The translations under genes were made by a program, and so were the position numbers. Below the pieces are notes generated by a model, which had not been told where the DNA came from, did not search any database, and worked only from the letters and a program-made list of their open reading frames with translations. Of a stretch of DNA of 64,000 bases, positions 50,805 through 64,000 are shown piece after piece; the stretch's first letter is position 1, and each line of letters starts with the position of its first letter. This DNA is from Erysipelotrichaceae bacterium (GTDB lineage Bacteria > Bacillota_I > Bacilli_A > Erysipelotrichales > Erysipelotrichaceae), in assembly GCA_017454765.1 (NCBI GenBank), contig JAFTCJ010000021.1, forward strand, positions 186,001 through 250,000, given 5' to 3'.

Positions 50805-50827
50805 AAGGAGCTAACCGATAGCCCCTT
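50805..50827 (-). terminator. suf operon terminator overlapping the sufB stop
   Basis: On the minus strand AAGGGGCTA pairs with TAGCTCCTT (9 bp, one G-T) around a 5-nt loop, followed by TTTTGTTTT. The hairpin includes the last sufB codons and its stop. Confidence 0.75.
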
Positions 50828-52220
50828 CCATGTTGATCTTGAGCAGCTGATTGAGTTCCACCGCATATTCCATCGGCAGTTCTCTTGTGAACGGTTCGAT
50901 GAAACCCAGGATGATCATCTGCGTCGCATCCGCTTCGCTTAAGCCCCTGGACATCAGATAAAACAGCTGTTCCTCCGAGATCTTCGATACGGTCGCCTCA
51001 TGTTCGATCGTCGAAGTATTGTTGGAGATGATATTTGTCGGGATCGTATCCGATGAAGATACATCGTCCAGGATCAGCGTATCGCATTCCACCTTTGCTT
51101 TGGAGAATTTCGCTTTTTCAGACATCGACACTGTTCCCCTGTAATTGACCTTGCCTCCGGCTCTGGCCAGAGACTTGGAAATGATCGTCGATGAAGTGTG
51201 CGGTGCCAGATGGATCATCTTGGCTCCGGCATCCTGTATCTGAGAGTGAGATCCGACGGCGATGGAGATACAGACCCCCTTCGCATTTTCACCCGCAAGG
51301 ATGCAGGCCGGATATTTCATGTTGATATGGGAGCCGATATTGCCGTCGATCCATTCCATGATGCCGTTTTCTTCCACCAGCGTACGCTTTGTGACCAGAT
51401 TCAGGATGTTTGCCGACCAGTTCTGTACTGTCGAATAGCGGCATTTGGCGTTTTTCTTGACGAAGATCTCAACGACAGCCGCATGCAGGGAATCGTTGGA
51501 ATATTTCGGAGCTGTACAGCCCTCTACATAATGCAGATCGGATCCCTCGTCACAGATGATCAGGGTACGCTCAAACTGTCCCATCTGATCGGAATTGATG
51601 CGGAAGTAAGACTGCAGCGGTTTTTCCAGCTTCACACCGGGCGGAACATAGATAAAGGAACCTCCGGACCAGACAGCCGTATTCAGCGCTGCGAATTTGT
51701 TGTCGGCATAGGAAACGACTTTCCCGAAATATTCCCTGAACAGATCGGGACATTTCTTCAGTGCCGTATCGGTATCGTAGAAGATGACACCCTTGCTTTC
51801 GACTTCTTCCAGCATGTTGTGATAGACGACTTCCGATTCATACTGTGTCGATACACCGGCGAGGAATTTCTGTTCCGACTCGGGGATCTTCAGCTTTTCA
51901 AAGGTATTCTTGATGGTCTCGGGAACATCATTCCAGTCTTTCTCCACCCTTTCCGAAGGCTTTTTATAGTAAGTGAAGTCATTGAAATCGATCTCGCTGA
52001 GATCGGGACCCCATTTCGGCAATGGAAATTCCAGGAATTTGTGATAAGCTTTCAGCCTTAATTCCAGCATCCATTCCGGTTCGTTTTTGGCAGCCGAAAT
52101 GGCTCTGATGACATCCTCACTGAGTCCCTTGCCGGTATTGAATATCGTGACATCCTGATCCTTGAAGTCATATTTGTAGTCATCCTGCGACTGCAGGATA
52201 TCTTTATTGTTCGAATTCAT
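50811..52220 (-). CDS. sufB: Fe-S cluster assembly scaffold SufB
   Basis: 469 aa, full length. Conserved blocks: [93 protein letters not shown]-type [15 protein letters not shown] and the ISSKS-like [19 protein letters not shown]. The C-terminal [26 protein letters not shown] is diagnostic. It forms the SufBCD scaffold where clusters are built. It overlaps sufU by 17 nt and is the last gene of sufCDSUB. Confidence 0.97.
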
Positions 52221-52632
52221 TGATCAGTTCCTCTATGGCATGTATGCCGATGGTGCCGCATTTGATGCGGTTGGCCTGCTGATAGAGCGTGTCAAAGGCA
52301 TTCGCCTCTTCCAGCGCGTCCTCATCAAAGGGTTTATCATCTACCATGTTATAGTATTCCTGAATGATCGCCTTTGCTTCCTCAAAACTCTTTCCGGTCA
52401 CCAGATCGCACATGATATCGGTGGAAGCCGTACAGATCGTGCAGCCGACACCGTCAAATTTGACATCTTCTATATGATCTTCACTGGCTTTCATGTATAC
52501 CGTGATGTCATCGATGCAGGATTCGGAAGCATTATGAACGGACCGGTATGAATCGTCCTCTACCGTCTGTTTGTTGTTGGGATGATTGTAATGATCCAGC
52601 ATGATCTCTCTTTTCAGTTCTTTGTCCATCAT
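52204..52632 (-). CDS. sufU: SufU zinc-dependent sulfurtransferase
   Basis: 142 aa from ATG 52632; a start at 52650 would add six residues including two Cys. Zinc ligands are in [22 protein letters not shown] and RIKCGTI, the SufU pattern. The [10 protein letters not shown] start is typical. SufU takes persulfide sulfur from SufS and passes it to SufB. The ATG overlaps the sufS stop. Confidence 0.93.
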
Positions 52633-53855
52633 AGTACACTGTCCACACATTTCTCTATCGTCGTATCTCTGATCACATCCACAAAGCGGTCGATCTCTTC
52701 TTTCGTATTGTAGATATGCATCGAAGCCCTGATCGTTTCATTCACATGGATCACGTGATGCAGCAGCTTGGCACAGTGATTGCCCGTCCTGACGGATATG
52801 CCGAGCCTGTTGAAATAAGAAGCCGCATCCTGGGCAAAGATCCCCTTCAGATTGAACGTGACGATACCGGCTTTGGATCCCCTGTTATAGACTTCGACAT
52901 TGTCCAGCTGTTCCAGTTTTTCAATGAAATAATCCGACAGCTCGATGCCGTACTCCATGACCTCATCCATGCCGATGCTTTCAAGATATTCGATCGCTTT
53001 TCTTAAACCGAGGACACCTTCGATGCAGGGCGTACCTGCTTCAAACTTTTCCGGAGTCTTCTGCAGGATAATCTCTCCGTTTTCGTAGAACCGGGCATTG
53101 CTTCCGCCGCCGTAGAAGATCGGATCCATCTGTTCCAGCAGATCGAATTTTCCATAAAGGATACCAATACCTGCCGGCCCCAGCATCTTATGGGAAGAAA
53201 ATGAAAGGAAATCGACATCCAGATCACTGACATCCACTTTCAGATGCGGAACAGCCTGCGCTCCGTCGATCGAAACCAGTGCACCGTGTTCATGTGCGAT
53301 CTTCACGATCTCTTTCACCGGATAGATATAGCCCATGACATTGGAAACATAAGGCAAGGCAACGATCTTCACCCTATTGTCGGAAAAACACTTTTCATAT
53401 TCATCCAGATTGAACACCGCATGTTCATCAAACGGGATATATCTGATCTCGGCTCCCGATGCTTCCGCCGCCTTGAACCAGGGCAGGATATCGGAGGCAT
53501 GTTCGACCTGAGAGGTCAGGATGACATCCCCTTTTTGCAGGAATTTCTTTCCGGCATTGATGGCAACAGTATTCAAAGAAGAAGTCGCGCCGTAGGTGTA
53601 GACGATACATTCCGGCCTTTCGGCTCCGATAAAATCAGCGACCGTCTTTCTGGTATCATCGTAGATCTTCGATACTCTGAAAGAAATATCATAATCGCCT
53701 CTGTGGATATTGGCATTTTCCCATTCGTAGTATTTCACGACTTCATCGATGACACACTGCGGCTTGAAGGAAGTCGCACCGGAGTCCAGATATATCAGAT
53801 CCGGATGATTGCGGATCATCGGAAAATCGTTTCTGATCTTGTTTACATCGAACAT
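52629..53855 (-). CDS. sufS: Cysteine desulfurase SufS
   Basis: 408 aa PLP enzyme. YLDSGATSFKP near the N-terminus, HRGDYDISFRVSKIYDDTR, QVEHASDILPW, SIDGAQAVPHLKVDVSDLDVDFLSFSSHKMLGPAGIGILYG (PLP Lys in SSHK, near 222), and the sulfur-carrying Cys in RTGNHCAKLLH near 361. It releases sulfur from L-cysteine for Fe-S assembly. It overlaps sufD by 13 nt. Confidence 0.96.
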   Translation of the reverse strand: MFDVNKIRNDFPMIRNHPDLIYLDSGATSFKPQCVIDEVVKYYEWENANIHRGDYDISFRVSKIYDDTRKTVADFIGAERPECIVYTYGATSSLNTVAINAGKKFLQKGDVILTSQVEHASDILPWFKAAEASGAEIRYIPFDEHAVFNLDEYEKCFSDNRVKIVALPYVSNVMGYIYPVKEIVKIAHEHGALVSIDGAQAVPHLKVDVSDLDVDFLSFSSHKMLGPAGIGILYGKFDLLEQMDPIFYGGGSNARFYENGEIILQKTPEKFEAGTPCIEGVLGLRKAIEYLESIGMDEVMEYGIELSDYFIEKLEQLDNVEVYNRGSKAGIVTFNLKGIFAQDAASYFNRLGISVRTGNHCAKLLHHVIHVNETIRASMHIYNTKEEIDRFVDVIRDTTIEKCVDSVL

Positions 53856-54574
53856 ACTTCATCTACCTTTCTGACTGCAGCTTCCTGTATCTTTCTGCCA
53901 TTATCAAAAGATTCATAAAAATCATCCGAAGGCATCAGATAGGATCTTAAGATCAGCTGCAGCGATTCTTTCTTGTTCAGACCGCGGGAATTCATGTAGA
54001 AAAGCACTTCTTCATCAATGGTGCCCATAGCCAGCGAATGTGAGGCCTTGACATCGTTTTCATCGATATTGAGCACCGGCAGCACTCTCGCCTTTTTCGG
54101 ATCGTCGATCGTCAGACAGTGTGAAGACTGGTGACATTTCGAACGTTTTGCCCCTTTGACGATCGTACCGATACAGTCCATTGAAAAAGATGACTGATCC
54201 AGACACACGATATTGTTGCTGATATTGACGGAAGAATCACTTTCCCTGTTGAACAGATCAAAAACGACATCCTTCTTCGCGGTACCCAGATATGTCGTAT
54301 GAACTTCCAGCTGGCTGTCTTTCATGACATCGATCCTGCTGTATTGTTTCAGATCGTATTTCTCAAGCTGCAGATAGCTGATCTGTATATGGGAATGGCT
54401 TATTTTTCCCGATTCATTCAGCGTGACATTTCCATGATGATCATTGAAGATCAGGATCGCATATTCTCCGTCTTTCAGATCATATTCGATATTGATCTTT
54501 TCGCAGTCAAGTATGACCGTCAAAGAACGGTCGATCAGAACAGGCTGAGAGTCCCGGATGATGATCTCAGGCAT
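53843..54574 (-). CDS. sufD: SufD-like Fe-S assembly protein, short form
   Basis: 243 aa from ATG 54574, much shorter than the roughly 350-440 aa of typical SufD. The beta-helix core and C-terminal KASHSLAMGTIDEEVLFYMNSRGLNKKESLQLIL are kept, including the conserved His of SHS. The N-terminal helical domain is missing. Position between sufC and sufS supports SufD. GAGAGGT SD; the start overlaps sufC by 8 nt. Confidence 0.85.
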   Translation of the reverse strand: MPEIIIRDSQPVLIDRSLTVILDCEKINIEYDLKDGEYAILIFNDHHGNVTLNESGKISHSHIQISYLQLEKYDLKQYSRIDVMKDSQLEVHTTYLGTAKKDVVFDLFNRESDSSVNISNNIVCLDQSSFSMDCIGTIVKGAKRSKCHQSSHCLTIDDPKKARVLPVLNIDENDVKASHSLAMGTIDEEVLFYMNSRGLNKKESLQLILRSYLMPSDDFYESFDNGRKIQEAAVRKVDEVCSM

Positions 54575-55391
54575 TTTTACCTCTCGGATTTCTGGCACAG
54601 GTGCCTAACGAATAAACAAGAGGTCTGCTTTCTCTGACCGGCTGTATCTTGAGTTCGTCATAGAGCCAGTCATAGCCGTCTGTATCGATCTTGTATACCA
54701 GTTCATCATCCCCTTCAACAACGATTTTTCCGTCAACGATGACATGGGAATGAGTCGGTCTTACCAGAGTAAAGAATCTTTCATAGTGGGAAACGATCAT
54801 CAGTCCCAGATCGCTTTTTTCCTTGAGTTCCAGGATGGCATCGGATACCAGCTTGATCGCATCGACATCCAGACCGGAGTCGATCTCATCCAGCATCGCG
54901 AATTCCGGTTCCAGCATCAGCATCTGCAGGATCTCATTTCTCTTCTTCTCACCGCCGGAAAAACCGTCATTGACGAAACGGTGGGCCAGGTCTTCCTTCA
55001 TCTTCAGCTTGGAGATATTGCCCTCCATGGCTTTGATGAACTTGAACAGTGAAATATTCTTCTCGAGACGCGAATTGATCGCTGCTCTTAAGAAATCGGA
55101 GTTGGTCACGCCGGCGATCTCCTTGGGATACTGCATCGCCAGAAAGAGGCCTTTTCTGCTTCTTTCATCGACGCTCATGGCCAGTACATCCTCACCGTTG
55201 AGAAGGATCTCTCCTTTTGTCACCGTGTATGCCGGATGGCCCATAATCGTCTGTAAGAGCGTGGATTTGCCGTTGCCGTTGGGGCCCATGATCGCATGGA
55301 TCTCACCTTTTTCAACAGTCAGATCGATGCCCTTTAATATTTCTTTTTCGCCTGCGGAAACATGCAGGTCTTTGATTTCCAGTTTTTGCAT
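54567..55391 (-). CDS. sufC: Fe-S cluster assembly ATPase SufC
   Basis: 274 aa from ATG 55391 (MQKLEIKDLHVSAGEKEILKG); ATGs at 55397 and 55403 and a GTG at 55400 are alternatives. ABC motifs: GPNGNGKSTL (Walker A), LAMQYPKEIAGV, GFSGGEKKRNEIL (signature), FAMLDEIDSGLDVDA (Walker B) and IVSHYERF. It drives SufBCD conformational change. About 20 extra residues at the C-terminus (PLVYSLGTCARNPRG) are unusual. The frame continues upstream of the promoter but without family similarity. Confidence 0.95.
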   Translation of the reverse strand: MQKLEIKDLHVSAGEKEILKGIDLTVEKGEIHAIMGPNGNGKSTLLQTIMGHPAYTVTKGEILLNGEDVLAMSVDERSRKGLFLAMQYPKEIAGVTNSDFLRAAINSRLEKNISLFKFIKAMEGNISKLKMKEDLAHRFVNDGFSGGEKKRNEILQMLMLEPEFAMLDEIDSGLDVDAIKLVSDAILELKEKSDLGLMIVSHYERFFTLVRPTHSHVIVDGKIVVEGDDELVYKIDTDGYDWLYDELKIQPVRESRPLVYSLGTCARNPRGKNA

Positions 55392-55407
55392 ATTCATCAC
55401 CATCAAA

Positions 55408-55413
55408 ATTATA
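55408..55413 (-). promoter_or_regulatory. -10 box of the suf operon
   Basis: TATAAT on the minus strand. The predicted transcript starts near GGTGATGAATATG, giving either a very short leader with a GGTGA SD for the ATG at 55391 or a leaderless GTG at 55400. Confidence 0.5.
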
Positions 55414-55481
55414 GCACCGTATCTTTTTTTGAAATGAAATATTATCCAATCTGAAATTTCTCTGAACTTTGAAAGATTAAA

Positions 55482-55510
55482 TTGTATTAATATAGATGAA
55501 CGTTTATAAT
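55482..55510 (+). promoter_or_regulatory. Sigma-A promoter of the prsA operon
   Basis: TTGTAT (55482-55487), exact 17-bp spacer, TATAAT (55505-55510). A GGAGG SD (55522-55526) is well placed. Two AACGTT palindromes (55499-55504 and 55515-55520) flank the -10 and could be operator half-sites. Confidence 0.75.
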
Positions 55511-55533
55511 ATATAACGTTTGGAGGTTTTTTT

Positions 55534-56538
55534 ATGGACAAAAAAGAACTGTTCAAGAAATACTGGTTCGTAGGCCTCGTAGCGCTTGTCCTGCTGGCTT
55601 TTGTCGGATTCTATGCAGTACAGGCGTATAAAAACAGAGACGTCGTCGTCAGCAACAAACAGACTGACGGCAAGTATGTCGCGTTCGAACTGGACGGTGA
55701 ACCGGTATATGCAGATGAACTTTATGAATCGTTATACGAAGCAGACGGACTTTCTCAGGCTGTCGTCGCCTTTGAAAGAGCGATCTTCAATGAAGCATAT
55801 GAGACGACCGAAGAAATGAAGAACATTGCCGCCAATTCTGCTGCATCCATCCTCTCCCGTTATTCCGAAGAATATGTCCTGCAGTCACTGGCTGCCATGG
55901 GCTATACCGGCGGGATCGATGATCTGACGCAGTACTATATCGACGGTCAGAAACAGGAACTGCTGATCAAGGAATATGTCAGTGCCAACAGCGACAAATA
56001 TCTCAAGGATATGTTGGGAACTGACGGACGCCTGATCTATCACATCCTGGTCAAGACCGATGTCAACGAAGTAACTGATGAAGACGGCAACGTGATCGGC
56101 TATGAAGCTGTTCCGACTGACGAACAGAAAGAAAAGCTGGCTCAGATCCAGGATGCCCTGAATGATGAAAACAACACATTCGAATATGTCGCCTATCTTT
56201 ATTCCGATGACGGATCAAAGGACAAAGGCGGATATATCGGTGTGATCAACGAAGAAAACAGAGAGATGTATGACAAGGCGTTCGCCGATGAGTCCATGAG
56301 ACTTGCTGACGGTGAGGTCTCCGATGTCATCACTTCCCAGTTTGGCTATCACATCATCAGAAATGCCGGTGTGGATGCGGATACGATCCTGAATGATTAC
56401 TACTTCCTTTCCGATCTGGAAAGCAATTTCCCGACGATGATACTGGAAGCCATCTTAAACAAGTCTGATGAACTCGGCTTTGAGATCAAGAACGAGGATC
56501 TCAAGACACAGATCCTGTCACAGCTGGAGGAAAACTGA
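55534..56538 (+). CDS. prsA: PrsA-like membrane-anchored peptidyl-prolyl isomerase (parvulin)
   Basis: 334 aa. An N-terminal transmembrane anchor (about residues 10-30) without a lipobox Cys, a helical chaperone domain and a parvulin domain at about 165-285 (IYHILVKTD, later KGGYIGVI, GEVSDVITSQFGYHIIR). It would help secreted proteins fold outside the membrane. Unlike Bacillus PrsA it seems to be an uncleaved membrane protein rather than a lipoprotein. It is followed one base later by a related lipoprotein gene. Confidence 0.88.
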   Translation: MDKKELFKKYWFVGLVALVLLAFVGFYAVQAYKNRDVVVSNKQTDGKYVAFELDGEPVYADELYESLYEADGLSQAVVAFERAIFNEAYETTEEMKNIAANSAASILSRYSEEYVLQSLAAMGYTGGIDDLTQYYIDGQKQELLIKEYVSANSDKYLKDMLGTDGRLIYHILVKTDVNEVTDEDGNVIGYEAVPTDEQKEKLAQIQDALNDENNTFEYVAYLYSDDGSKDKGGYIGVINEENREMYDKAFADESMRLADGEVSDVITSQFGYHIIRNAGVDADTILNDYYFLSDLESNFPTMILEAILNKSDELGFEIKNEDLKTQILSQLEEN

Positions 56539-57412: not shown

Positions 57413-57807
57413 TGTGCGTCTTCTGCGAAATCATCAAGGGAAACATCCCTTCCAGAAAAGTATATGAGGACGAAAATTTCCTCGCGATCCTGGATATCTC
57501 GCAGACGACCAGGGGCCATACCCTGGTCATGCCGAAAAAGCATTATGACAATTTCCTTGAAATGCCTGCTGCCGAATTTGAAGCACTGATGTCCAAGACA
57601 CAGCAGATCGCAAAACAGGTCATCGCTTCATTGAATGCCAAAGGATGCAACATCCTGATCAACACCAATGAAGTTGCCGGCCAGAGTGTCATGCATACAC
57701 ATATTCATATCATTCCCAGATATGATGAAAATGATACGGTCACATTGAAATTCGAAGAAAACAGCTTCGATCTCGATGAGATCCTCAATCAGATATTAAA
57801 AGGGTAA
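57412..57807 (+). CDS. hit: HIT family nucleotide hydrolase
   Basis: 131 aa. Histidine triad HTHIHIIPR near residue 98 (HxHxHxx), with CVFCEIIKGNIPSRKVYED at the N-terminus and the RGHTLVMPKKHYDNF block. The two N-terminal Cys (VFCEI and its neighbour) are a partial version of the zinc site. It hydrolyses phosphoramidate or dinucleotide substrates such as AMP-lysine; the true one is unknown. The ATG overlaps the upstream stop (TAATG). Confidence 0.93.
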   Translation: MCVFCEIIKGNIPSRKVYEDENFLAILDISQTTRGHTLVMPKKHYDNFLEMPAAEFEALMSKTQQIAKQVIASLNAKGCNILINTNEVAGQSVMHTHIHIIPRYDENDTVTLKFEENSFDLDEILNQILKG

Positions 57808-57830
57808 ATCATCTCGATTTACCCTTTCTT
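57800..57830. terminator. Bidirectional terminator between hit and the UroD-family gene
   Basis: AAGGGTAAAT pairs with ATTTACCCTT (10 bp, 7-nt loop, including the hit stop). T-rich sequence follows on both strands, so it serves hit (plus) and the liv-uroD operon (minus). Confidence 0.7.
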
Positions 57831-57831
57831 C

Positions 57832-58830
57832 TTATATCCGGTCCTTGGAAAGTTCCAAGGCTTTTTCTTTGATGTATTTCAGTGTCTGTTCATCCAGCGG
57901 ATAGCGGATGACGCAGCCCGGAGCCAGGATATGTTTCACTCCTTTGAATGATTCAAGACAGGCTTCGATCTGTTCATCAATCTTTTCCAGGTTCCTGTCG
58001 GTGATATCCCTTCTGTCAAGACCGCCCATGATGCATTTGCCGCAGGTCTTGACTTCCTCAAGATCGGGAAGTGATTCCCAGGCATGCCAGTTGAAGATAT
58101 CCACCGGATAATCCTTCAGGATACTGAACATGATGTTGGTGCCGTGACAATGTACTGTATCGCAGAAGCCCGATGAGGCTTCCAGGACCTGCCTGTCATA
58201 GAAAGCACCGAACTCTTCAAATGTCTTTTCATCCGTCACGTCGCAGGAAGACATCTGGGAAGCAAAGAAAATACCGTCGGCGCCGATCCTGTTGACTTCT
58301 TTTACCAGCTGAACGGTCAGATCCGTGATGTTCTGCAGTGCTTCATGGATAAGTTCTGTATTTCCTTCGGCGATATCTTTCAGTATCCTGTTTCCGCACA
58401 GCTTGTTGGCTGTCGTAAACGGAGAAAACACCGTGAATATGACCGGAACATCCTCATCCTTCACCTTTTCCAGCAGCAGTTTCAGGGAATAGATCTCTCT
58501 CTGGATCGCCTTGCACTCACTGAGATCCTTCTTCTGGATCAGTTTCCAGTCTTCTACGGAATTGACCGGCGTGGAGATTAATTTAGCGACACCGCCCTTT
58601 TCGATCTGCGAATAATCGATCTCACAGCCGAAATCCTCGATCGCATACATTCCGTTGTTCATGGTCTTGATCAGATCGGTGTCATATTTTCTGTAAAACC
58701 GGTACGTTTCTTCTGCCAGTCTTTCAGGATCCATATCGATCCCGGGAAGATGAGTCCAGATCGCATAAGGAAGCTGATCGACTTTCTTTCCCTCTACCGC
58801 ATTGCGTATTCTCTCTTTCTTGCTTAACAT
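57832..58830 (-). CDS. UroD/MtaA-family protein (uroporphyrinogen decarboxylase-like), copy 1
   Basis: 332 aa TIM-barrel protein. It starts KKERIRNAVEGKKVDQLPYAIW, as in the UroD/MtaA/CmuA methyltransferase branch. Putative zinc residues are in TVHCHGTN (near 220) and LAPGCVI (near 307), giving an HxH...C set rather than the HxC...C of MtaA. Members transfer methyl groups between corrinoid proteins and thiols. No other haem gene is near, so true UroD activity is improbable. The ATG shares a base with the preceding lyase stop (TGATG). Confidence 0.8.
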   Translation of the reverse strand: MLSKKERIRNAVEGKKVDQLPYAIWTHLPGIDMDPERLAEETYRFYRKYDTDLIKTMNNGMYAIEDFGCEIDYSQIEKGGVAKLISTPVNSVEDWKLIQKKDLSECKAIQREIYSLKLLLEKVKDEDVPVIFTVFSPFTTANKLCGNRILKDIAEGNTELIHEALQNITDLTVQLVKEVNRIGADGIFFASQMSSCDVTDEKTFEEFGAFYDRQVLEASSGFCDTVHCHGTNIMFSILKDYPVDIFNWHAWESLPDLEEVKTCGKCIMGGLDRRDITDRNLEKIDEQIEACLESFKGVKHILAPGCVIRYPLDEQTLKYIKEKALELSKDRI

Positions 58831-60104
58831 CAGTCCTCCAGCATGATATTGAGTATTTCAATATCCGTTTCTTTCATACCTTCGGCAGCCATTCGGCCGT
58901 AGGCTTCAATGGTACGTTCGACATCTTTTTTGACCATACCTTCGCCATTGCGGAATACATTGTGATTTAAGGCCATATCGACGCTCATGAGCGCTGTTTC
59001 CACTGCAATCGATATTTTGCCTGCACAGCTGCTTTTCGCTCCGTCACAGACCATTCCGCCGATCACAGCGATACAGTTGGTGATGACATCGCAGATCTCT
59101 TCATAGCCTCCGCCTTTCAGCCAGCAGATGCCGCATCCGGCACCGGCTGCTGCCGATACGGCACCGCAGTAGGCACTCAGATAGCCGATATAGCGCTTCT
59201 GATGCAGAGCGATCAGATTGGCAAGTACGAGAGCCCTGATCAGCTTTTCATGCGATACCTTCAGTTCTTCCGCATATTCGATCACGGGAAGCGACACCGT
59301 CATTCCCTGGTTTCCGCTTCCGGAATTGATGACGACCGCCATCGGACAGCCGTTCATCCTGGCATCGGATCCGGCTGCCGCTTTGGCTCTCGCCCGGAAA
59401 CGGACATCCGGACATTCACGGCACGACAGCATCGTCTGACCGACCTGTTCGCCCCACTTGTCCTTCAAACCTCTTTCGGAGATCGCCGTATTGTCCTTGA
59501 TCTGCAGTTCAATGAGATCTTTCACTTCATCAAGATCCACCGTTTCCGCATATTCCAGGATATCGGCAACGTTCAGAAGCGATTTATCGGCGCCGACATC
59601 TTCATCGGAACAGCATTCCCTGTCCAGCAGGATTTCATCGTTCCTGATGATCTTCGTGAAGTTGGAATGCGTCTGCCGGATCTCAACCAGTGCTTTTTCA
59701 TTCCCTTTGAACGCTTCAATGCGGATATAAAGTGTCGGTACATCCTTTTCCAGATGACATGTCACCTTTATCTGCTTTAGATGTTCCTTTAGTTTCTCTC
59801 TTTCCTCATCGGAAACTCTGGATATGACCTGCAGTCCGGCATCCGGATCACCGGCACACATACCTAAAACAACGGCTGTATCAATGCCCTTGATCCCGCC
59901 GGAATTGGGTACGACGACTGCTTTGACGTTTTTGATGATGTTTCCGGAACAGTAGACTTCCACCCTTTCCGGAAGATCGCCTAATACCGCCTTCACTTTG
60001 GCGCCGGCAAGCGCCAGAGCGATCGGCTCGGTACAGCCGGTAGCTTCCTGAAGTTCTTCCTTCAGGATCTGTCCGTAAACTTTTGAAATCTCAGAGTTCA
60101 TCAT
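58830..60104 (-). CDS. CyuA/YhaM (UPF0597)-like Fe-S lyase, possible L-cysteine desulfidase or serine deaminase
   Basis: 424 aa from ATG 60104 (GGAGGG SD). The family pattern is clear: EATGCTEPIALALAGA with cluster Cys24, VPNSGGIKGIDTAVVLG, MNGCPMAVVINSGSGNQGMTVSLPVIEYAEEL, SAYCGAVSAAAGAGCGICWLKGG and GGMVCDGAKSSCAGKIS with further cluster cysteines. Members such as CyuA/CdsB break down L-cysteine to pyruvate, ammonia and sulfide, and the fold is related to L-serine dehydratase. The substrate here is not known. It sits between the two UroD-family genes and overlaps both. Confidence 0.82.
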   Translation of the reverse strand: MMNSEISKVYGQILKEELQEATGCTEPIALALAGAKVKAVLGDLPERVEVYCSGNIIKNVKAVVVPNSGGIKGIDTAVVLGMCAGDPDAGLQVISRVSDEEREKLKEHLKQIKVTCHLEKDVPTLYIRIEAFKGNEKALVEIRQTHSNFTKIIRNDEILLDRECCSDEDVGADKSLLNVADILEYAETVDLDEVKDLIELQIKDNTAISERGLKDKWGEQVGQTMLSCRECPDVRFRARAKAAAGSDARMNGCPMAVVINSGSGNQGMTVSLPVIEYAEELKVSHEKLIRALVLANLIALHQKRYIGYLSAYCGAVSAAAGAGCGICWLKGGGYEEICDVITNCIAVIGGMVCDGAKSSCAGKISIAVETALMSVDMALNHNVFRNGEGMVKKDVERTIEAYGRMAAEGMKETDIEILNIMLED

Positions 60105-61149
60105 TGACGATACCCTCCTCCATGACGACTTCATGCATCAGCGTGAAGACATAGCGGTCCACATCCATCGGCAAGGCACAGCCCGGTGCAAATACGACAC
60201 GTCTGTCCTTGCTTTCGTTGATCACCGTCAGCAGTCTTTTCCTGAAGAATTCCTTGAGTTCATCTCGGTTATTGTCTTCGTTGTAGTAATCATAATGTCT
60301 GGCCAGACCGGTAATCAGGATCTTATCCGTCATTTCCCTGACTTCGGCAACTGAAGAGATCGTATCGGAATCCAGTCCGGGAACACAGTTTTCCCAGCTG
60401 AAGGCCTGTACATCATAATCGATGCACTTGTCAAACATCAGATTGTTTTCACCGTGTACATGTAAGACATTGAACCAGGTCCTGTCTGTGATATAGGAAA
60501 GGATCTCCTTATCGTAAGGTGAACAGAACTCATCATATAATTCATCTGTGATCACGTTTCTTGATGCATACTGATTGGCGAAGAAGATACCATCGATTTG
60601 GGCTTCCTCGATCAGCATGTCCAGATATACTTTTGTGCTTTCAACGATCTTTCTCAGCGCTTCATGAACTTCAGCCTTGTGTTCCTTCATCAGAGGAAGC
60701 GTCTTATCATTGGTCCCCCTGCTCATCAGTTCCTGAAGGGTTGTCAGAGGCGTGAAGATTGTTGAGATGACCGGTTTTTTGTCTTTATAATAATCAGTCA
60801 GATTCTTTGCGATCGCTGTTTCCCTCAGAAAAACAGGATTGTTTCTGTCCAGTATTTCCAGATTCTTCAGTGTTTCCAGATCCCTGATCGGGTAGCGGTT
60901 GATCGTACCGTACCAGTGAGTCAGATCTTTCGACAGAGTGATGTCTCCGCCCCATGCTTCCGGAGGATAGTGTCCGGTTGACATGATTTTGATGAAATCC
61001 CATTTGCAGTACTCTGTGACACTGATCGTAGCCTTTGTCATGTCATGGACATTGTGATCCACCATCGGCATATGTACCCAGCCGCTGACACCGATCCTGT
61101 CAAAAGGCTCATGATTGATCATGGCTCTGATACGCTGTGTGCCGTTCAT
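60091..61149 (-). CDS. UroD/MtaA-family protein, copy 2
   Basis: 352 aa, distant paralog of the copy 250 residues downstream in the operon. MNGTQRIRAMINHEPFDRIGVSGWVHMP is the family N-terminus; LHVHGENNLMF (near 227) and VFAPGCALPMD (near 322) again give an HxH...C set. IDGIFFANQYASRN is shared with copy 1 (IFFASQMSS). It begins 3 nt after livF and overlaps the lyase gene by 14 nt, so it should be made together with the transporter. Corrinoid-linked demethylation is the best guess. Confidence 0.8.
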   Translation of the reverse strand: MNGTQRIRAMINHEPFDRIGVSGWVHMPMVDHNVHDMTKATISVTEYCKWDFIKIMSTGHYPPEAWGGDITLSKDLTHWYGTINRYPIRDLETLKNLEILDRNNPVFLRETAIAKNLTDYYKDKKPVISTIFTPLTTLQELMSRGTNDKTLPLMKEHKAEVHEALRKIVESTKVYLDMLIEEAQIDGIFFANQYASRNVITDELYDEFCSPYDKEILSYITDRTWFNVLHVHGENNLMFDKCIDYDVQAFSWENCVPGLDSDTISSVAEVREMTDKILITGLARHYDYYNEDNNRDELKEFFRKRLLTVINESKDRRVVFAPGCALPMDVDRYVFTLMHEVVMEEGIVNDEL

Positions 61150-61152
61150 TTC

Positions 61153-61857
61153 CTAACCTCCGAGATAACTCTTCTTGATCATGTCGTTGCGAAGCAGTTC
61201 TTCACCGCTTCCTTCGATCGTGATCTCGCCTGTCTCCAGGGCATAGGCACGATCGGAGATCTCCAGAGCAGCCATGGCGTTCTGTTCGACCAGCAGGATC
61301 GTCGTGCCCTGTCTGTTGATCTCATTGATCAGATCGAAGATCTGTTCGACCAGGATCGGGCTTAAGCCCAGAGACGGTTCATCCAGCATCAGGATCTTGG
61401 GATCGGACATCAGAGCCCTGCCGATCGCCAGCATCTGCTGTTCACCGCCGGAAAGCGTACCGGCGATCTGTTTCTGTCTGTCCTTGATCTGCGGGAAGAG
61501 TTCGAATACTTTCTCGTAGTGGCGCTGATTCAGTTCCTTGTCAGTGACAGTATAGGCACCCATCAAGAGGTTCTCCTCTACCGTGAATTTCGGGAAGATC
61601 TGTCTGCCTTCCGGAGCCAGGATGATACCCTTCCTGACACGGTCACGGGGAGAAAGTTTTGTGATATCTTCGCCTTCGAAGATGATCTCGCCCATCTTGG
61701 GTTTTAATACACCGCTCAATGTATTCATCAGTGTCGACTTGCCTGCACCGTTGGCACCGATAAAGGAGAGGATCTCTCCTTTTTCGACATGGAAAGAGAC
61801 ACCGCGCAAGGCTTTGATATTGCCGTAATAAGTATGCAGATTATTTACTTGCAGCAT
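61153..61857 (-). CDS. livF: Branched-chain amino acid-type ABC transporter ATPase LivF
   Basis: 234 aa from ATG 61857 (MLQVNNLHTYYGNIKALRGVSF). ABC motifs: GANGAGKST (Walker A), ILAPEGRQIFPKFTVEENL, GTLSGGEQQMLAIGRAL (signature), ILMLDEPSLGLSPI (Walker B) and LLVEQNAMAALEISDRAYALETG. The EGRxxFxxLTVxENL block is typical of LivF. AAGGAG SD inside livG, overlap 17 nt. Confidence 0.95.
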   Translation of the reverse strand: MLQVNNLHTYYGNIKALRGVSFHVEKGEILSFIGANGAGKSTLMNTLSGVLKPKMGEIIFEGEDITKLSPRDRVRKGIILAPEGRQIFPKFTVEENLLMGAYTVTDKELNQRHYEKVFELFPQIKDRQKQIAGTLSGGEQQMLAIGRALMSDPKILMLDEPSLGLSPILVEQIFDLINEINRQGTTILLVEQNAMAALEISDRAYALETGEITIEGSGEELLRNDMIKKSYLGG

Positions 61858-62626
61858 TGTTGTGTGCTCCTTTCCTGCCCAGATATGCTTCAATGACTTC
61901 CTGATTGTTCTGGACCTCTTCCGGTTTGCCTTCACAGATCTTTGCACCGTGGTTGAGTACGACGATCTTGTCGGAAATATCCATGACCAGTTTCATGTCA
62001 TGTTCGATCAGAAGAATGCCCTTCACATCTTTCAGAAGCGATCTGATGAATAATGACAGTTCTTTCTTTTCCACCGGATTCATGCCGGCAGCCGGCTCAT
62101 CCAGCAGCAATATCTTCGGTTTGGCGACCAGCGCTCTGCCGATCTCCAGTTTTCTCTGCTTGCCATACGGCAGGCTCGTTGATTTTTCATAGCGATACTT
62201 GCTCAGATCGACTCTTTCCAGGATGGCTGTAGTCTCCTCCTTGGCTCTTTTTTCCCATTCGATCTTCTTCGGATTTGGGAACAATGACAGAAAAGAACCG
62301 TAGCCGATACGATGCTGCATGCCGATCAGGATATTGTCCTCTACCGTCATGTTGGAGAACAGACGGATGTTCTGGAATGTCCTGCTCAAGCCCTTGGAAA
62401 CGACGATATCGGTCGATGCACCGGTGATGTCTTCGCCGTCCAGTATCACTTTTCCTTCATTCGGTGTATAGAAACCGGTCAGCAGGTTGATGACTGTCGT
62501 CTTGCCGGCACCGTTGGGTCCTATCAGAGAAGTGATCTGCCCCTCTTCCATCGTGAAGCTGAGATCATCGACAGCGACCAGTCCGCCGAAACGGATCGTC
62601 AGATTTTTAACTTCCAGTAATGACAT
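61841..62626 (-). CDS. livG: Branched-chain amino acid-type ABC transporter ATPase LivG
   Basis: 261 aa. FGGLVAVDDLSF, GPNGAGKTTVINLLTGF (Walker A), GLSRTFQNIRLFSNMTVEDNILIG (LivG-type block), LPYGKQRKLEIGRAL (signature variant), ILLLDEPAAGMNPVE (Walker B) and LIEHDMKLVMDISDKIVVLNHG. It pairs with LivF to power the permease. It starts 2 nt after livM. Confidence 0.95.
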   Translation of the reverse strand: MSLLEVKNLTIRFGGLVAVDDLSFTMEEGQITSLIGPNGAGKTTVINLLTGFYTPNEGKVILDGEDITGASTDIVVSKGLSRTFQNIRLFSNMTVEDNILIGMQHRIGYGSFLSLFPNPKKIEWEKRAKEETTAILERVDLSKYRYEKSTSLPYGKQRKLEIGRALVAKPKILLLDEPAAGMNPVEKKELSLFIRSLLKDVKGILLIEHDMKLVMDISDKIVVLNHGAKICEGKPEEVQNNQEVIEAYLGRKGAHNNAASK

Positions 62627-62628
62627 GT

Positions 62629-63618
62629 CTATACCTCCTCCTCAGCTGCTTTGCGATGCAGCAGTTTTCTGAAGAAAGCTGCGAAACCCTGTTTCAGTTT
62701 CAGACCGGGGATGGAGTGGTTCAGCCACATGACGATGACCAGCACAAGACCATAGGCGATCATACGGTATTTGAACAGGAAATCAAAACGTCTCAGATAT
62801 TCCGGCAGTATCGTCAGGAAAAGTGCTCCGATCAGCGTTCCGGTGAAATTGCCCAAACCGCCGACGACGACGATACTGATACAGGTGAAACTCAGGTTGG
62901 CGTTGAAAGTCGCCGGTTCGACATAGGTCATCAGATGCGCATACAGACTTCCGGCAATGCCTGCGAAAATGGCCGAGATCGTAAAGACGATGACCTTGTT
63001 GGGGAAAAGCCTGATGCCCATTGCTTCGGCAGCAATCGAGTCATCTCTCATCGCCTGCAGGTTGCGTCCGAGCTTGGAATCGACCAGCCACTTCATCAGG
63101 ATATAGGTGATGAAGACAAAGATCAGCGCAAAATAAAAGAACTGTATCTTGGTCTTGAAACGATAGCCGAATAATGTGATGTTGGGGATACCGACGATGC
63201 CCATCTGTCCCAGAGTCACCGGATCCCAGTTTCTGATGATCAGGTTGACGATTTCCGCAAAGGACAGCGTGATGATCGTGACGTAACGGCCCGTGATCCT
63301 TGACATCGGTAATGCCAGCAATAAACCGGCCAGACCGGTGATCAGGACGACTAATAAGAAGTTTGTGGAATAATCCCAGCCGAAATGATACCAGAGGCAG
63401 GCAGTCGTGTAGGCACCGATGCTGTAGAAAGCCGCGTGACCGAAAGAAACAGTACCGCCGATGCCCATCAGCAGGTTCAGCGACATTGCAAAGATCATGT
63501 TCAGCTCACAGCTGATCAGGATCCTGAGCTGATAAGGGTTGGTCAGAAACGGTGCAACGGCCATTCCGGCCATGATGATCAGAAAGATGATCGTTCTAGT
63601 GTCTAAATACTTTTTCAT
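62629..63618 (-). CDS. livM: Branched-chain amino acid-type ABC permease LivM
   Basis: 329 aa with eight or nine hydrophobic segments. Family motifs LNLLMGIGGTVSFGHAAFYSIGAY, RITGRYVTIITLSFAEI, AEAMGIRLFPNKVIVFTISAIFAGIAGSLYAH and GGLGNFTGTLIGALFL are present. The substrate-specificity of such systems extends beyond Leu/Ile/Val. It lies 3 nt after livH. Confidence 0.95.
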   Translation of the reverse strand: MKKYLDTRTIIFLIIMAGMAVAPFLTNPYQLRILISCELNMIFAMSLNLLMGIGGTVSFGHAAFYSIGAYTTACLWYHFGWDYSTNFLLVVLITGLAGLLLALPMSRITGRYVTIITLSFAEIVNLIIRNWDPVTLGQMGIVGIPNITLFGYRFKTKIQFFYFALIFVFITYILMKWLVDSKLGRNLQAMRDDSIAAEAMGIRLFPNKVIVFTISAIFAGIAGSLYAHLMTYVEPATFNANLSFTCISIVVVGGLGNFTGTLIGALFLTILPEYLRRFDFLFKYRMIAYGLVLVIVMWLNHSIPGLKLKQGFAAFFRKLLHRKAAEEEV

Positions 63619-63621
63619 CGT

Positions 63622-64000
63622 TTACACCTTCTTCTGTTCCTTTCTGCCGAAGATTCCGGTCGGCCTGATGATCAGCACCAGGATCAGAATGCCGAAGCTG
63701 ATGAAGTTGGAAGCCGACATGGACCAGTAACCGGAAACAAGGTTTTCAGCGATCGCCAGGATATAGCCGCCGACGACCGCACCTTTCAGTTCACCGATAC
63801 CGCCTAAAACGGTCGCAGCGAAGGCTTTGTTGCCGATCGCCGAACCGACGGAAATAGAAATGGATTTCAAATACATGCAGTAAGCGACACCGCTGACTGC
63901 CGCCAGCATCGAACCGACCGCAAAAGATACGCCGATCAGCGTATTGACCGGCATGCCCATCAGGTGACAGGCATTCAGGTTCTGGGACAGAGCTCTCAAA
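63622..64000 (-). CDS. livH: Branched-chain amino acid-type ABC permease LivH, partial (5' end outside window)
   Basis: The last 126 or so codons of LivH. The frame is open to the window end, and the apparent TTG at 63999 is internal (RALSQNLNACHLMGMPVNTLIGVSF aligns to the middle of LivH). TVLGGIGELKGAVVGGYILAIAEN and ILILVLIIRPTGIFG mark the C-terminal third. A substrate-binding protein gene (livK-like) is expected just beyond the window. Confidence 0.9.
   Translation of the reverse strand, partial: LRALSQNLNACHLMGMPVNTLIGVSFAVGSMLAAVSGVAYCMYLKSISISVGSAIGNKAFAATVLGGIGELKGAVVGGYILAIAENLVSGYWSMSASNFISFGILILVLIIRPTGIFGRKEQKKV

Follow-up and report, generated by a model that had tools for sequence, protein, structure and literature searches.

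The stretch of DNA considered here, a window of 64,000 nucleotides from an Erysipelotrichaceae bacterium (C15:186001-250000 of the parent contig, JAFTCJ010000021.1), ends in a minus-strand cluster of seven open reading frames (ORFs) that couples a Liv-type ATP-binding cassette (ABC) transporter to two proteins of the UroD superfamily and a CyuA-type lyase, a combination that may serve the catabolism of a blocked cysteine derivative. The genes are livH (a permease, 63622..64000, truncated by the window end and complete at L003:6123-7004 on the parent contig), livM (a BPD_transp_2 permease, 62629..63618), livG (61841..62626) and livF (61153..61860), two ATPases whose best NCBIfam matches are LivG and LivF, respectively, uroD_B (60091..61149, 352 residues), a cyuA-like gene for a putative [4Fe-4S] L-cysteine desulfidase (58830..60104, Pfam SDH_alpha) and uroD_A (57832..58830, 332 residues). 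Two starts in the mechanical ORF list are too long as judged from relatives, that of livF (listed at 61947, probably around 61860) and that of cyuA (listed at 60134, probably 10 codons too long, around 60104). With refined starts, the gaps from livH through uroD_A are +3, +2, -20, +3, -14 and -1 nucleotides. An earlier reading of the letters alone (the sequence-only reading) had proposed the operon livH-M-G-F-uroD-cyuA-uroD, and its coordinates and strand are borne out by the ORF list of the window, its family assignments by Pfam.

The contig extends past the livH end, where the sequence-only reading had suggested looking for a binding protein. One is encoded there, of the Peripla_BP_6 family (L003:7081-8331), which together with the two BPD_transp_2 permeases and the two ATPases completes a Liv-type (HAAT) importer. 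It is followed by an ATC_hydrolase-like gene (PF14196, L003:8375-8881), an AraC-type response regulator (RR, L003:8973-10004), a YesM-type histidine kinase (HK, L003:10001-11680) and a divergent major facilitator superfamily gene. The full cluster order is, therefore, [HK-RR]-ATC_hydrolase-like-binding protein-livHMGF-uroD_B-cyuA-uroD_A. The single polycistronic unit that had been suggested is supported, and it would span from the ATC_hydrolase-like gene to uroD_A. Since a hairpin is seen 3' of the regulator gene in three relatives, the kinase-regulator pair and the metabolic genes probably form two units. At the other end, a terminator-like inverted repeat with a 12-pair stem (57799..57827, equal to L003:300-328; a consensus match only) lies between uroD_A and a convergent HIT-family gene, and is probably the end of the operon. 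Immediately 5' of the ATC_hydrolase-like start codon (ATG) there is a further inverted repeat, a strong one with a T tract (L003:8881-8980), and upstream of it a TTTTACAAGAAAAGTGTAGGA block recurs in close relatives; these elements could possibly be a terminator, an attenuator or a regulator site. No riboswitch or T-box that could name the ligand scored above the Rfam threshold upstream of the cluster in five loci, and promoter scans gave matches no more frequent than in shuffled sequence. As for the surroundings, a complete-looking SUF iron-sulfur assembly operon (sufB, sufU, sufS, sufD and sufC by sequence appearance) adjoins the cluster at window positions 50811-55556, and a bacterial RNase P class B RNA is located at L003:17214-17536.

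UroD_B has strong matches in 6 of 196 Erysipelotrichaceae genomes, and UroD_A is present in every one of them. The core of the cluster (ATC_hydrolase-like protein, binding protein, LivHMGF, UroD_B, CyuA and UroD_A) is found in all six, with proteins 57-97% identical, and the kinase and regulator are intact in five (the sixth contig stops shortly upstream of the ATC_hydrolase-like gene). uroD_A has been relocated in front of the kinase gene in one genome. At L031:1079-3392, azlC and then a small AzlD-sized frame directly follow cyuA, at the position that uroD_A has in other genomes. The cluster also appears in named Erysipelotrichaceae metagenome-assembled genomes (MAGs), several of them labelled goat or water-buffalo gut, although some of these contigs are identical to contigs among the six genomes. 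Because the core is kept at these identities in six genomes despite different flanking genes, and in further MAGs, the arrangement is more than chance, and the co-occurrence in gut genomes that the sequence-only reading had put forward as a check is indeed observed. UroD_B is missing from most listed members of the same genus, a patchy distribution that resembles that of a transferred cassette. No viral relatives of UroD_B were found. The GTDB phylum sample contained no HxH cluster outside the family, other phyla having been reached through plasmid records only.

Both UroD paralogues (UroD_B is 26-29% identical to UroD_A) contain a W-x-H motif near the N-terminus (H27 in UroD_A; W24 and H26 in UroD_B), an H-x-H-G motif (H227/H229 and H230/H232) and a late cysteine (C306 and C324), all invariant in the six genomes, so that the HxH...C pattern noticed from the sequence alone is real. 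They belong to the URO-D family (PF01208; 106.3 bits for UroD_A and 88.6 for UroD_B, against a gathering cut-off of 23.9) and fall outside the HemE equivalog TIGR01464 (cut-off 302.95 bits), to which UroD_B scores 23.9 bits and UroD_A gives no match. The AlphaFold model of UroD_A (pLDDT 92.7) has as its nearest solved structure 4ay7, a methylcobalamin:coenzyme M (CoM) methyltransferase (Z 35.6, 317 residues, 2.2 A), ahead of HemE (Z about 33) and MetE (Z about 22). In the alignment to 4ay7 the second histidine falls at the position of the first zinc cysteine. Zinc is bound by His-Cys-Cys in the S-methyltransferases of this superfamily and by carboxylates in the O-methyltransferases (Kountz and Balskus, PMC10418091); the invariant H-x-H...C departs from the His-Cys-Cys of MtaA/MtbA, and the putative His-His-Cys site matches neither ligand pattern.

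Methyl-group handling by the UroD proteins had been proposed by the sequence-only reading, with S-methylated amino acids as candidate substrates. In its classical form, one UroD would transfer the methyl group from S-methylcysteine (or Se-methylselenocysteine) to a corrinoid protein whose gene lies outside the cluster, the other UroD would pass it on, and CyuA would split the resulting cysteine. The closest curated models of both proteins are indeed the MtaA/CmuA methyltransferases, 4ay7 is the closest fold, and the pair of UroD paralogues is reminiscent of the Mlps in type 1 mlp gene clusters (PMC10418091). However, the best scores against the curated MtaA/CmuA/MtbA models are far below their cut-offs (93.3 of 244 and 77.1 of 235.4 bits), the ligands are H-H-C instead of H-C-C, and, where a type 1 mlp cluster has at least two Mlps, a corrinoid protein and Ram, only the two UroD proteins are found here. 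The six cluster genomes were screened for the corrinoid-binding domain PF02310, the corrinoid-protein cap domain PF02607 and the corrinoid reactivase PF14574, together with G038, an Erysipelotrichaceae genome that has a classical UroD-corrinoid operon and served as the control. The control has all three domains. None of the six cluster genomes has PF02310 above the cut-off, PF02607 or PF14574, an absence that in a draft genome is not proof (the genome of the window is 72% complete and three others 94-97%). A weak PF02310 match in the genome of the window (27.9 bits, below the 32.1 cut-off, in a 450-residue frame) was not taken to represent a corrinoid methyl carrier. Methylenetetrahydrofolate reductase (MTHFR, PF02219) was found in none of the seven genomes and, hence, does not discriminate them from G038. 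With corrinoid domains, reactivase and MTHFR undetected, the methyl group would have no corrinoid to carry it and no folate route of the usual kind for its oxidation, and the cluster genomes lack a detectable corrinoid route; methyl-group handling is, therefore, weakened, and the corrinoid-dependent S-demethylation is close to refuted.

Methyl transfer could also proceed without a corrinoid, if the UroD proteins worked like MetE or betaine-homocysteine methyltransferase and passed a sulfonium or quaternary-nitrogen methyl group directly to a thiol. MetE shares the fold, uses zinc and needs no corrinoid, and an H-H-C site could still bind zinc. Its structural similarity is nevertheless well below that of MtbA-type proteins and HemE, the cluster has no acceptor or methionine-cycle gene, and the missing MTHFR counts against this alternative too, which makes it unlikely. 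A fixed link to MetE is itself improbable, since the MetE-like domain PF01717 is found in only two of the six cluster genomes.

The lyase aligns over 410 residues with the L-cysteine desulfidase CyuA of M. maripaludis, its nearest solved structure. CyuA has three conserved [4Fe-4S] cysteines, with Arg223, Asn239 and Lys339 near the cluster, and an essential Cys23/Glu25 pair that is not conserved in serine dehydratases (PMC12647591). All eight functional residues are invariant in the six genomes (C323, C363, C370, C34, E36, R259, N275 and K373), C34 and E36 being the counterparts of Cys23 and Glu25. The residues are thus those of a CyuA-type L-cysteine desulfidase rather than of a serine dehydratase, and, because all eight positions are kept, the last step is read as a probable desulfidation of cysteine that yields pyruvate, ammonia and sulfide. 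The sequence-only reading had the final cleavage give pyruvate, ammonia and "sulfide or water"; this stands, with sulfide singled out by the CyuA-specific residues. Alternatively, the lyase could act on serine or some other beta-substituted alanine, and the UroD proteins could release that compound in place of cysteine, considering that CyuA and serine dehydratases have a common fold and cluster (PMC12647591); the invariant C34 and E36, without counterparts in serine dehydratases, and the cysteine desulfhydrase-type enzyme of the proteobacterial relatives described below render this improbable.

Relatives of UroD_A with the HxHG...C pattern are encoded on plasmids of Microvirga (41% identity), Gemmobacter (38%), Aerococcus (35%), Thermomicrobium (31%) and Polaromonas (30%). 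The Gemmobacter locus has a LysR gene and the series UroD-TctC-TctB-TctA-RidA-PLP enzyme-octopine-dehydrogenase-like, in which the match of the pyridoxal phosphate (PLP) enzyme to NF052478, the model for the L-cysteine desulfhydrase Cds1, reaches 562 bits (cut-off 600; next family 153). In Microvirga the cassette recurs with RidA and Cds1 damaged (the Cds1 fragment scores 259 bits): in the Microvirga sp. VF16 plasmid (L085:16081-17329) the alignment of RidA is split in two, and the frame of the Cds1-like protein enters an IS6-type transposase. In Polaromonas a Cds1-like gene (511 bits) is divergent from LysR-UroD-TctC-like genes, and in Aerococcus the HxH UroD gene comes after MetQNI-type genes. 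A looser link comes from a plasmid of Lentilactobacillus kefiri, which has an independent operon UroD-amino-acid ABC transporter-PF14196, and from Nicoliella, with two UroD genes ahead of an amino-acid ABC transporter. In a tree whose fine placement is uncertain because several rows have unusual composition or long branches, the UroD proteins of the HxH type and of the Lactobacillales, together with two more from loci where no corrinoid gene was seen, stand apart from corrinoid-linked UroDs (99/99). A further UroD-superfamily gene (L106:8558-9538) lies amid mannose-family phosphotransferase system genes, with amidohydrolase and BtpA-family genes close by, and no corrinoid gene was noticed there. 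Next to an HxH UroD and a transporter, anaerobes thus have an Fe-S enzyme where the proteobacteria have a PLP enzyme, and this swap of unrelated cysteine-degrading enzymes (CyuA and Cds1) is the main reason to suggest that the UroD proteins deliver L-cysteine.

Taken together, the cluster is best read, with a probability of about 0.5, as a module that imports and degrades a blocked cysteine derivative. The adjacent two-component system would probably switch it on, and the LivHMGF-type transporter would import the compound with its own binding protein, whose amino-acid-binding Ser/Thr region aligns only loosely with that of solved relatives and names no ligand. The ATC_hydrolase-like protein and the two corrinoid-free UroD proteins, with their zinc-type HxH...C site, would then strip the blocking group and release L-cysteine, a role that for the UroD proteins is inferred from gene linkage, and CyuA would split it. 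In the favoured chemistry, which is speculative, the cysteine sulfur would be held by the zinc of the UroD barrel, and the metal would aid cleavage of a C-S bond, with no methyl group passed to cobalt; this bond might be that of a thiazoline, a thiazolidine or an S-acyl or S-carbamoyl group, and a thiazoline or thiazolidine is a first guess for the imported substrate. Of the sequence-only reading, uptake of an amino-acid-like compound and final cleavage are supported, whereas methyl handling of an S-methylated substrate is weakened. On a broader view, held with rather less than even confidence, the W-x-H...H-x-H...C UroDs would be a corrinoid-free group tied to transporters (Liv ABC, Tct and MetQNI) in distant bacteria, performing a new zinc-type release of L-cysteine from blocked derivatives, with CyuA and Cds1 as interchangeable last steps.

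A sharpened form of this module is a pathway for 2-aminothiazoline-4-carboxylate (ATC, the cyanide-cystine adduct) or thiazolidine-4-carboxylate, in which the ATC_hydrolase-like protein would open the ring, the UroD proteins would remove a C1 or carbamoyl unit, and cysteine would pass to CyuA. The protein is a clear member of PF14196 (70.4 bits against a gathering cut-off of 28.1), a family linked to UroD and amino-acid ABC transporter genes in two distant groups, and in Pseudomonas ATC is converted into carbamoyl-cysteine and then cysteine (PMC10821248). The named hosts are ruminants, and ruminant feed can be cyanogenic. ATC is a known cyanide metabolite (PMC9291117). On the other hand, PF14196 members without UroD are common, and the predicted fold of the family resembles Bet3/V4R ligand-binding domains (Z up to 10.4), suggesting that the ATC_hydrolase-like protein may act enzymatically or serve as a carrier or sensor. 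The same fold is also seen in the MopR and DmpR phenol sensors. We know of no precedent for UroD proteins as decarbamoylases, and this more specific pathway is doubtful, if worth keeping in mind.

Several observations weigh against the cysteine module as a whole. The Gemmobacter and Microvirga cassettes are related (61.9% identity for UroD and 85.8% for TctA), so the Cds1 link comes from about two lineages; RidA and Cds1 are both damaged in Microvirga, and the alignment of the Polaromonas Cds1-like gene is spread over two frames. In L. kefiri the UroD protein has HxC and an identity of only about 21%, and the tree grouping of all HxH UroD proteins reaches only 84/84. Relatives also have ATC_hydrolase-family proteins (about 35% identity) whose genes are isolated and distant from UroD genes, which makes the family name weak evidence for function.

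Annotation usually treats members of the UroD family as heme enzymes, or else they are taken for corrinoid methyltransferases. If the branch described here is corrinoid-free and cysteine-delivering, many "uroporphyrinogen decarboxylase family" genes beside transporters have been misread, and it becomes possible to test for a gut route that leads from a sulfur compound of the diet or the host to hydrogen sulfide; were the substrate a thiazoline derived from cyanide, there would also be a link to detoxification in ruminants. No paper that connects UroD to cysteine desulfidase, cysteine desulfhydrase or ATC hydrolase, and no earlier description of the cluster, was found in the open literature searched.

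Among known systems, the MtaA/MtbA CoM methyltransferases and the type 1 mlp clusters (PMC10418091) share with this one the UroD fold, the first histidine and last cysteine of the zinc site, two UroD paralogues per operon and a link to sulfur compounds. They differ in that here the second zinc ligand is a histidine, there is an extra W-x-H and no corrinoid protein or reactivase, the scores are far below the curated cut-offs, and the UroD genes are coupled to a transporter and CyuA. The CyuA systems of E. coli (cyuPA, cysteine fermentation, PMC9040844) and M. maripaludis (PMC12647591) have the same eight functional residues and couple import with desulfidation, but here import is of the Liv ABC type and two UroD proteins and an ATC_hydrolase-like protein stand between import and CyuA. 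MetE, the cobalamin-independent methionine synthase, has a UroD-like barrel with zinc and no corrinoid, whereas the proteins described here are single barrels of about 330 residues with no homocysteine context, and the UroD_A model is structurally closer to 4ay7 (Z 35.6, against about 22). Finally, the Pseudomonas pathway from ATC to cysteine (L-ATC hydrolase plus carbamoylcysteine amidohydrolase; PMC10821248) has in common a PF14196-family protein and cysteine as the inferred product, although in the Erysipelotrichaceae cluster UroD proteins take the place of the amidohydrolase gene and the cysteine would be degraded further.

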